Positions 43,469 to 48,257 of a DNA stretch of 64,000 nucleotides are shown one piece after another (the first letter of the stretch is position 1; each line of letters opens with the position of its first letter). The stretch lies in assembly GCA_902589175.1 (NCBI GenBank), contig CACIRX010000004.1, forward strand, positions 24,369 to 88,368, given 5' to 3'. A program made the position numbers and the translations under genes. The DNA is from an uncultured Pelagibacteraceae bacterium (GTDB lineage Bacteria > Pseudomonadota > Alphaproteobacteria > Pelagibacterales > AG-422-B15). The notes below the pieces were generated by a model. It ran no database searches. It was not told the DNA's origin and saw only the letters and a program-made list of their open reading frames with translations.

Positions 43469-44173
43469 TTGTTATTTTCTAAAAATTTACGATCTAAATA
43501 CTATTCTTATCAAGGAAGAAAAATATCAAAAAAAATATCTCAATCAAAAAAAAAATTAATTAATGATTTTTATGATCGATTTTCTTTTGATCAATCAATT
43601 ATTCAATACCACAACCAGAAAAATATAAAGCAAAAGCTTAAATTTCCAGATCAGTTTAAAAAAGTAAATATTGAGATTGGTTTTGGTAATGGTGAATTTT
43701 TAATTAAAAATGCAATTTCTAGTCCAAACGAATTGTTTATTGGAATTGAAGTTTATTTAAATGGAATTGCAAAAGTTCTAACTGAAATAATAAATTTAAA
43801 ACTGGATAATATAATTCTTAGTAATCTTAATAGTTTTTATTTTTTAGAAACTATTTCATGCAAATCAGTTGATAGAATATTTATAATTAATCCTGATCCT
43901 TGGACCAAGAAACGACACCATAAGAGAAGAGTAATGTCTTATGAAACAATAAAACTTTTAAAAAAGATTGTTAAATCAAAAAATTCTATCTTCATGACGA
44001 CAGACTCAGAAAGTTATATTAAAGATACTGAAAGGTTGTTAAATAAATACAAAGCATCTTTTGGAAGCTATAAAACATGTATACTGTCGGAGAATAATAA
44101 ACTATATGGAATTTCTAGATATCAACGAAAAGCAATTGAAAAAGAGGGAAAAATTTATCTATTAACACTATGA
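43469..44173 (+). CDS. trmB: tRNA (guanine-N7-)-methyltransferase
   Basis: IEIGFGNGEFLIKNA, INPDPWTKKRHHKRRV; TTG start. Confidence 0.93.
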   Translation: MLFSKNLRSKYYSYQGRKISKKISQSKKKLINDFYDRFSFDQSIIQYHNQKNIKQKLKFPDQFKKVNIEIGFGNGEFLIKNAISSPNELFIGIEVYLNGIAKVLTEIINLKLDNIILSNLNSFYFLETISCKSVDRIFIINPDPWTKKRHHKRRVMSYETIKLLKKIVKSKNSIFMTTDSESYIKDTERLLNKYKASFGSYKTCILSENNKLYGISRYQRKAIEKEGKIYLLTL

Positions 44174-44193
44174 AATTACCAGGTTTTACTTAC

Positions 44194-44222
44194 TTGATTT
44201 ATTGATATTAGAGGTGTATAGA
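44194..44222 (+). promoter_or_regulatory. Putative sigma70 promoter for the nusA-infB transcript
   Basis: TTGATT-N17-TATAGA between trmB and the hairpin at 44248. Confidence 0.4.
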
Positions 44223-44247
44223 ATTACTAAATTTTGCTAATTCAAAC

Positions 44248-44275
44248 AAAAGTGGGTTTAGCCCGCTTTTTTTTT
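44248..44275 (+). terminator. Intrinsic terminator/attenuator hairpin upstream of nusA (rimP-leader-like)
   Basis: AAAAGTGGG-tttag-CCCGCTTTT stem (9 pairs, one G-T) inside a run of 9 T. Confidence 0.75.
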
Positions 44276-44291
44276 ATGCTAAAGGATAAAT

Positions 44292-45827
44292 ATGGTAAGT
44301 GCTAACAAAATCGAAATATTAAGGATTGCTGAAACCGTTGCCCAAGAAAAAATGATAGATAAGTCAGTTGTCATTTCGGCATTAGAAGAGGCTATAGCAA
44401 AAGCAGCTAAAAGCAATTATGGAGAAGAGAATGAAGTAGTTGTAGAAATAAATCAAGATAATGGAGACATTTCAATATCTAGAAAAATGTTAGTAGTCGA
44501 TGACGTAAAAAATAAATTCTTAGAAATAACACTTAAGGCTGCAAAAAAGATAAATGGAGCTGCACAAATTGGTGATCAACTTTTAGACCCTCTGCCTCCC
44601 TTAGATTTCGGAAGAATAGCTGCCCAATCAGCTAAACAGGTAATTAATTCAAAAGTGCGTGAAGCTGAAAGGGAAAGACAATTTAACGAGTATAAAGATA
44701 GGGTTGGTGAAATTGTGAATGGAATTGTCAAAAGAACAGAATTTGGAAATATAATTTTAGATCTTGGAAAAGCAGAGGGTGTTGTAAGAAAAGATCAGAC
44801 AATACCGCGAGAAAATCTTCGCAACGGCGATAGAGTAAGGGCCTATATTTATGATGTTAGATCGGAGCTTAAAGGGCCGCAGATATTTTTATCTAGGTCA
44901 CACCCACAATTTATGGCAAAATTATTTACTCAAGAGGTACCTGAAATTTATGATGGGATTATCTCCATAAAAAGTGTTGCACGTGATCCAGGAAGTAGAG
45001 CAAAGATAGCTGTCTTTACGGAAGATGGATCAATAGATCCAGTCGGTGCATGTGTTGGAATGAGAGGTAGTAGAGTTCAGGCAGTAGTCAATGAATTACA
45101 GGGAGAAAAAATAGATATAATTAATTGGTCCGAGAATGTAGCAAATTTGGCTATAGCTTCATTATCTCCTGCTGAGGTTCTTAAGGTTGTGATTGATGAA
45201 GACCAAAATAAAATTGAGGTAGTTGTTTCTGAAGAGCATCTCAGTTTAGCTATAGGCAGAAGAGGGCAGAATGTTAAGCTCGCTACCGAACTGACTGGAT
45301 ACGAAATTGATATTTTAACTGAAGATGAAGAGTCATCTAAGCGTCAAGAGGATTTTGTTAATAAAACAGGTATTTTTATAAAATCACTGGATGTTGATGA
45401 AACACTTGCTCAGCTATTAGTCAGTGAGGGTTTTGCAAGCGTTGAAGAAGTTATTGAGACTGATCAATCTGAATTACTATCAATTGAAGGCTTTGATGAA
45501 GAAATAGTTACTGAGTTAATTGAAAGAGCAAAAAAATACATATCTAACAAGGAAAAAGAAAATCAATTAAAAATTGAGAATCTTAAAGTTTCCGAAGATC
45601 TAACTCAGTTTGAATTTCTCACGAAAGCTATGATAGTAAAACTAGCTGAAAACAATATAAAGACGTTAGACGATTTTGCTGGTTTAACAACAGATGACCT
45701 AATCGGTTACTTAGAGGTTAAGGGAGATAAAAATTCAAAGGTGTCTGGACTATTGGAAGAGTTTAATATTACAAGAGAAGAAGGTGATCAATTAATCATG
45801 GAGGCTAGAAAAATATGGCTTGATTAG
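44292..45827 (+). CDS. nusA: Transcription termination/antitermination factor NusA
   Basis: VARDPGSRAKIAVFTEDGSIDPVGACVGMRGSRVQAVVNELQGEKIDII; KH domains; C-terminal repeats. Confidence 0.97.
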   Translation: MVSANKIEILRIAETVAQEKMIDKSVVISALEEAIAKAAKSNYGEENEVVVEINQDNGDISISRKMLVVDDVKNKFLEITLKAAKKINGAAQIGDQLLDPLPPLDFGRIAAQSAKQVINSKVREAERERQFNEYKDRVGEIVNGIVKRTEFGNIILDLGKAEGVVRKDQTIPRENLRNGDRVRAYIYDVRSELKGPQIFLSRSHPQFMAKLFTQEVPEIYDGIISIKSVARDPGSRAKIAVFTEDGSIDPVGACVGMRGSRVQAVVNELQGEKIDIINWSENVANLAIASLSPAEVLKVVIDEDQNKIEVVVSEEHLSLAIGRRGQNVKLATELTGYEIDILTEDEESSKRQEDFVNKTGIFIKSLDVDETLAQLLVSEGFASVEEVIETDQSELLSIEGFDEEIVTELIERAKKYISNKEKENQLKIENLKVSEDLTQFEFLTKAMIVKLAENNIKTLDDFAGLTTDDLIGYLEVKGDKNSKVSGLLEEFNITREEGDQLIMEARKIWLD

Positions 45828-45848
45828 TCGTATGTGCAAGTTTTTATT

Positions 45849-48257
45849 ATGTCTGATAATAATGATAAAATAAAAAAGAAAAAAACTTTAAGTTTAAAAC
45901 TTGGTTCTAAACCTTTAATTGCCCCTAAGAGAAATATTGAGGTTGGTAAAACAGTTATTGTTGAAAAGAAAAGATATAAAAGAGGTCCACAATTTGAGAA
46001 TAATGAACAAAAATTTCAAAGTAATGAAGCAAATACTATTAATAAAATTGAGCAAGAAATTAATGATAAAAAAAATTACGAGAATAAATCTGGTGTCGTA
46101 CTTAAACCCCTATCAAAAGATGAACAAAAAAAGATTCTAAAAGCTGATAGTAAAAAAGAAAAAAAAGATGAAATAGAAAAGATTAGAGCGGGCAAAATAT
46201 CTGGTCAACAAGAAAAGTCTGATAGTTTTTCACCAAGTGATACCAGCCCTGAAATTCTTAATACTCCATATAAAGAAAGTAAAAAAGAGTCTGAAAAGAA
46301 AAAAACTTCTGAAACAACAATTGAAACTGAAGACAGAAAAAAAACTCAAAATACTTTTGGCCGAAAAAAAGTTAGAGAAAGAAAAGTTACCATTGTTACT
46401 GCCTTAAGTGATATTGACGAGAGAACTAGAAGCCTTGCAGCTTACAAAAGAGCCAAACAGAAAACAAAAAAAATACATACTGAACAAGAACCAGCGAAGA
46501 AAATTATTAGAGACGTGTATATCCCGGAATATATAACCGTAAAAGAATTAGCAAATCGAATGACAGAAAAATCAGGCGATTTAATAAAATCATTAATGAA
46601 AATGGGCATGATGGCAACAATAAATGAATCTATCGATGCAGACACTGCAGAGCTGTTAGTTACTGAGTTTGGACACAATTTTAAAAGAGAAAACATTGAA
46701 GATATTGAAAAGGACCTAATATCAAAAGATTCAAAAGCACAAAAAAATGATACTAGGTCGCCAATTGTTACAATTATGGGTCATGTAGACCATGGTAAGA
46801 CTTCTTTATTAGATAAGATAAGAAATACTAATGTTGTATCAGGTGAAAGTGGAGGTATTACTCAACATATTGGTGCTTATGAGGTAAAGCATAAAAATAA
46901 TAAAATTACTTTCATAGATACACCTGGGCATGCAGCATTTACAGATATGCGTGCAAGAGGTGCTAATGTAACAGACATTGTAGTTTTAATAGTAGCCGCT
47001 GATGACGGTGTCATGCCTCAAACAAAAGAGGCAATTTCTCACGCAAAGTCTGCAAAAGTTCCCATAATTGTTGCTATCAATAAATGTGATAAACCAGAGT
47101 CAAATCCACAGAAAATAAAGGAACAGCTTTTATCTGAAGACTTAATAGTTGAAGAGTTGTCTGGTGAGATTCAATCGGTTGAAGTTTCAGCTGAAACAGG
47201 AAGCAATATTGACAAATTGTTAGACTCTATTGTCTTACAGGCTGAACTATCAGAATTAAAAACAAATAATGAAACTTTTGCGGAGGCCACTGTAATTGAG
47301 GCAAATGTTGATAAAGGTAGAGGTCCTCTTTGTAATATCATTGTAACAAATGGCAAATTAAAAGTTGGCGACATAGCAGTTGCTGGAAGCGAATATGGAA
47401 AAGTAAGGGCCATACTTAATGACAAGGGTCAAAATTTAGTGGAAGCAGTTTCATCCATGCCTGTTCAAGTATTAGGTCTTAATGAGCCGCCAGAGGCCGG
47501 AGACAGCTTCGTAACTGTAGAGAGTGATGATAAAGCAAGAGAGTTATGTGAAATAAGAAGTCAAATTAAAAAGAACAAAATTTTACCAAAAAAGGTGAAA
47601 AATCTTGATAATGAATTGGCTTTCGGCTCTTTAGAAACAAATAAGGAAATACTAGAGGTTGTTATAAAAGCTGACACACGTGGCTCATCTGAGGCCATAA
47701 TTCATCAATTAGAAAATATAAAAAGTGAAAAAATAAGCATTAAAGTTATTCACTCAGGTGTTGGTTTTATTAATGAGAGTGACATTGCCCTTGCATCTGC
47801 TTCAAACGCATTACTATTATCATTTAACTCATCCACTACAAAAGAAGCTAAGACTAAAGCTAAGTTGAGCAATATTACGATTCAAAACTTTAATATAATT
47901 TATGAGCTCATTGAGTTTGTATCTGACTTTGCCAGTGGAAAGTTAAAACCGACTATTAAGGAAAATTTTATCGGGAAAGCAGAAGTATTACAGATATTTA
48001 AAGTTTCAAAAATTGGCGCAATTGCAGGTTGTAGAGTAATAGAGGGCTCAGTTAGTAAAAATTCTAAAGTCAAAGTAACAAGAAATGAAAAAATAATTTT
48101 TGATGGAGACATTCTTAGTCTTAAAAGAGAAAAAAATGAAGCCAATGAAGTAAAGTCCGGAACCGAGTGTGGAATTAGTGTTAAAGAATTTAATGAATTT
48201 GAGGTAGGGGATTTTATTGAAGCTTTTAGTGTTGAGGAAATTGCACAGACGTTGTGA
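45849..48257 (+). CDS. infB: Translation initiation factor IF-2 (ORF opens at 45834; ATG at 45849 likely)
   Basis: [37 protein letters not shown]; charged N-terminal region. Confidence 0.97.

Follow-up and report, generated by a model that had tools for sequence, protein, structure and literature searches.

A rimP-leader-type terminator hairpin precedes nusA directly in RimP-less Pelagibacterales

The window, as we call the whole 64-kb stretch of DNA analyzed here, carries the gene order metK (42305)–trmB–nusA–infB, with more translation genes beyond. The trmB gene (43469..44173, + strand), the upstream neighbour of nusA, encodes a tRNA (guanine-N7)-methyltransferase and was assigned by Pfam (Methyltransf_4, 7.6e-36). 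The nusA gene (44292..45827, + strand; Pfam NusA_N, S1 and KH) encodes a protein 74–93% identical to those of close relatives, in records named Pelagibacteraceae or Pelagibacterales, which assigns the window to SAR11 (Pelagibacterales). It is followed after about 6 bp (45827–45834) by infB (45834..48257, + strand), the next operon gene, which encodes IF-2 and was assigned from its translation and the standard gene order. The gap from the trmB stop (44173) to the nusA ATG (44292) is 118 bp and is too small for RimP, as the first-pass annotation of this DNA had stated, and nusA is the first gene 3′ of the attenuator described below, without rimP before it. In Alphaproteobacteria, ylxR usually lies between nusA and infB; there is none between them in the window, where ylxR, like rimP, is missing from its place.

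Within this gap, a sigma-70-type promoter, TTGATT-N17-TATAGA (44194..44222, + strand; TTGATT at 44194–44199 and TATAGA at 44217–44222), is followed by a short 5′ leader (44229..44247, + strand) and then by an intrinsic terminator of the rimP-leader type (about 44248..44275, + strand), AAAAGTGGGT-TTA-GCCCGCTTTT with nine T at 44267–44275. The sequence AAAGGA (44281..44286, + strand) is the probable nusA ribosome-binding site. The promoter was identified from its sequence and its conservation in relatives, and the terminator from its fold, a covariance model and its conservation. The hairpin, AAAAGTGGGTTTAGCCCGCTTTTTTTTT at 44248–44275, consists of ten pairs running into the nine T, with a folding energy of about -12 kcal/mol, and is the sole terminator-like site that a terminator scan found on the + strand between 40 and 52 kb. 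The pattern G[TC]GGG..CCC[AG]C-T occurs once in the 64 kb besides its own reverse complement, and when one strand of the window was shuffled 200 times, chance alone gave 22 matches. The form GTGGG..CCCnCTTT occurs a single time in the genome, the assembly of which is 78% complete.

The T run is exactly nine in 20 of the 20 leaders measured. Between the T tract and the nusA ATG there are 16 nt in the window and 12–26 nt in the relatives, which leaves no room for a promoter, and nusA must therefore be reached by read-through. As judged by duplex energies, the 5′ leader pairs with the 5′ arm of the hairpin no better than shuffled leaders do. Since no such pairing exceeds chance, the likely modulator is a protein and not an alternative fold of the RNA. 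In the window's genus, a fairly conserved TTGCTAAnTCAAACA element lies upstream of nusA where the leader starts (L031–L056); its pairing to the hairpin was not detected, and it is possibly a protein-binding site.

Taken by itself, the promoter is nothing unusual for AT-rich DNA: it lies below the cut-off of a generic scan, and promoter-like sites in that scan are fewer than in shuffles. In an alignment of 18 relatives, which represent several of the family's genera, the promoter blocks CTTGATTTAT and GTGTATA are nearly invariant, and the hairpin segments AAAGTGGG...CCC[AG]CTTTTTTTTTA show little or no variation, unlike the spacers. The promoter and the hairpin, both read from the letters in the first-pass annotation, are thus credible because they are conserved in relatives. 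The sequence places the probable start of nusA-leader transcription near 44229.

RimP is absent from the whole order. Neither RimP_N (PF02576; 0 of 149) nor RimP_C (PF17384; 0 of 116) was found in near-complete Pelagibacterales genomes, several of which are single-contig, and PF02576 has no match in the window's own assembly or among 53 genomes of its family. Across the class, the same search recovered RimP from 121 of 138 near-complete genomes, and 10 of the 14 control genomes also have it. Four RimP-less class members (G120, G129, G162 and G163) are also without a NusA_N match, despite an estimated completeness of 96–97%. A RimP too divergent for detection, or missing from the assemblies only, could be suspected from the 78% completeness of the window's assembly. 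Against this, both domain models are blank across so many near-complete genomes, the syntenic slot is closed, and the lone weak match to PF02576, in a less complete genome (G359, sub-threshold 20.1 bits), falls in a long protein that does not resemble RimP; we regard a hidden RimP as extremely improbable. The order-wide lack of both domains indicates loss rather than the relocation that had also been considered. On the NusA tree, Pelagibacterales form one clade (support 100/99), and this monophyly points to a single rimP loss, in the ancestor of the order or earlier. The loss preceded the radiation of the order and is not an assembly gap. A look for an intermediate in close relatives had been proposed as a further check; no rimP remnant was found.

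Is the hairpin as widespread as the loss? Among the genomes listed, 106 of 107 Pelagibacterales genomes carry it 37–50 nt before the NusA domain, and the exception (G210) has CGGG for TGGG in the same place. A SAR11 genome contains the simple hairpin pattern about once or twice. With the pairs counted from the GGG/CCC core, the stem is GGGC..GCCC in most of the order, and in Pelagibacteraceae it is mostly ATGGGC..GCCCAT, an exact GGGc..gCCC, as compared to GGGu..gCCC in the window. In the window's family, the loop has one base fewer. Between the two families, the outer G-C pair is replaced by A-U and the inner C-G pair by U-G, U-A or A-U, and the GGG/CCC core remains unchanged while these flanking pairs compensate.

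As a good intrinsic terminator located 3′ of trmB, the hairpin might be read as the mere terminator of an upstream metK-trmB operon, with nusA served by an unrelated promoter. The conserved promoter between trmB and the hairpin speaks against this, as does the lack of space for a promoter between the T tract and the ATG. Moreover, in two Pelagibacteraceae genera, g137 and g140 (L130, L152, L155–L157 and L159–L165), metK rather than trmB adjoins the nusA leader, and the distance from hairpin to nusA is unchanged. That the hairpin stays with nusA where trmB is missing argues against its being a terminator for metK-trmB. The same hairpin also precedes rimP elsewhere, as described next, and we consider the terminator reading, which the first-pass annotation had named as the alternative, very unlikely.

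In the best 30 RimP loci of the class, read on the coding strand, the strict pattern G[TC]GGG..CCC[AG]C followed by T is present upstream of rimP, within about 170 bp of the RimP domain, in 23, and 6 further loci have hairpin variants recognizable by eye. None of the 30 has the strict pattern in the stretch that runs from the beginning of the RimP domain to nusA, and in shuffled upstream regions it appears in 10 of 3000. Relatives of metK and trmB lie upstream in most of these loci, which indicates the ancestral order metK-trmB-leader-rimP-nusA, which needs only the deletion of rimP to become the SAR11 order. A covariance model (R1) built from 22 leaders before rimP in RimP-bearing Alphaproteobacteria, none of them SAR11, has its best match in the 64-kb window at 44247–44273 (23.7 bits, E = 6.5e-5). 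In the whole genome the nusA leader ranks third, and the score is supportive rather than decisive because two other terminators score slightly higher. These lie between amino-acid transporter genes and after proteorhodopsin, and have GGGCC stems, not GTGGG. Position and conservation, rather than the motif score, carry the case.

A strong hairpin, GGGGGCC-TCTT-GGCCCCC-T8, is located between amino-acid-binding protein and permease genes (L166 1457–1486; G000:C5:64456–64485), and is probably an intercistronic attenuator or an mRNA stabilizer.

Outside the order, the RimP-less G187 and G077 have GGTGGG-TTAT-CCC[AG]CC followed by T directly before nusA, and the RimP-less G109 has GGGCGGGG..CCCCGCTC-T4 in the same place. 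The inspected loci of G059/G174, G095, G071, G112 and G195, likewise RimP-less, have no such hairpin before nusA, and retention of the leader after rimP loss is therefore not a rule. On the NusA tree, the non-SAR11 RimP-less lineages are scattered with weak support, and several are long branches; they need several changes, of which the well-supported branches force only two. Independent retention of the leader may plausibly have occurred in these other lineages.

Taken together, we propose that the hairpin is an inherited rimP-leader attenuator, kept after the loss of rimP and now regulating nusA-infB, most likely by NusA feedback, with a probability of roughly 0.7. The promoter-hairpin-nusA order, its conservation, the loss of RimP and the identity of the hairpin with that before rimP elsewhere are seen directly. 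The proposal that rimP was deleted and its leader kept before nusA, made in the first-pass annotation, gains support from the order-wide absence of RimP and from this identity. The leader would have come from RimP-bearing Alphaproteobacteria, and the deletion of rimP, in or before the Pelagibacterales ancestor, would have placed it directly before nusA-infB. RNA polymerase would start about 20 nt before the hairpin and transcribe it at once, with two possible outcomes: a stop after the U tract, which would release an RNA of only about 45 nt, or read-through into nusA. Abundant NusA would most likely stimulate termination at the hairpin and thereby hold down its own level. Termination at the hairpin in the cell is predicted from the sequence, and autoregulation with NusA as effector is suggested by analogy with distant bacteria. 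In E. coli, NusA expression represses the operon (cited in PMC2965389), and in B. subtilis, nusA is controlled in its 5′ leader, where NusA stimulates termination (PMC12288461). Naville and Gautheret (2010) proposed RimP or, more likely, NusA as the effector of the leader and left the choice open (PMC2965389).

The main rival to NusA feedback also takes the hairpin as a rimP-leader-derived attenuator, and supposes that it acts independently of NusA, by fixed partial termination or through another factor such as NusG, Rho or the translation state. The hairpin with its nine T is strong on its own, antiterminator pairing is not visible, and NusA binding at the leader is putative, all of which would fit this rival. 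Conversely, the need for pairing would not by itself explain how far the GGG/CCC core is conserved across Alphaproteobacteria, and in B. subtilis the stimulation of leader termination by NusA is established. We therefore judge NusA-independent action unlikely, though it is the rival to be taken most seriously.

The retention of the leader without rimP suggests that the signal controls nusA rather than rimP. As SAR11 is without RimP, RimP cannot be the effector of the SAR11 leader, and retention after rimP loss thus argues against RimP as leader effector in Pelagibacterales. We tentatively suggest, at somewhat less than even odds, that the order-wide retention reflects a widespread, RimP-independent attenuator tied to nusA, with G187, G077 and G109 as independent repeats. 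In this order of very abundant marine bacteria, RimP drops out as effector while the leader is strictly conserved, which favours NusA, and the leader concerned is only about 60 nt long. In addition, the order-wide loss of a 30S maturation factor is documented in free-living, streamlined cells.

How does the window leader compare with known systems? Searches for papers that mention RimP along with SAR11 or Pelagibacter brought up none on leader retention. The first-pass annotation had linked the hairpin to the described rimP leader and treated that leader as alphaproteobacterial; the link to rimP stands, while the restriction does not, since the published description covers bacteria more widely, with Firmicutes and Gammaproteobacteria among them (PMC2965389). 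Its suggested check with the Rfam rimP model (RF01770) turned out negative: nothing reaches gathering in the window, and the site, at 14.7 bits where the gathering score is 47, is not a member. All Rfam models, at gathering and permissive thresholds, gave only chance-level matches in the window. RF01770 concerns the same operon and the same idea of a terminator before rimP, but its 102-position model passes the cut-off in only 1 of the 14 controls and is not representative of the generic leader.

The generic rimP leader is a short terminator with a GGGc(...)gCCC stem and a T stretch, located in the rimP-nusA-infB operon leader 4–130 nt from the gene start, with no visible antiterminator (PMC2965389). 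The window leader has the G-rich 5′ arm and C-rich 3′ arm (GGGu..gCCC, the inner C-G pair being U-G), nine T right after the stem at 16 nt from the gene, and antiterminator pairing no better than shuffled; it also matches the leaders before rimP in relatives by R1, though third genome-wide. The difference is in position: the generic leader precedes rimP as the first operon gene, while that of the window precedes nusA. By its sequence, the window leader is the generic rimP leader in a derived position, a derived variant rather than a standard member. The nusA operon leader of B. subtilis likewise uses an intrinsic terminator to control transcription into nusA (PMC12288461). There, ylxS (rimP) heads the operon and attenuation by NusA has been shown experimentally, whereas in the SAR11 operon, which is without rimP, the same mechanism is proposed.
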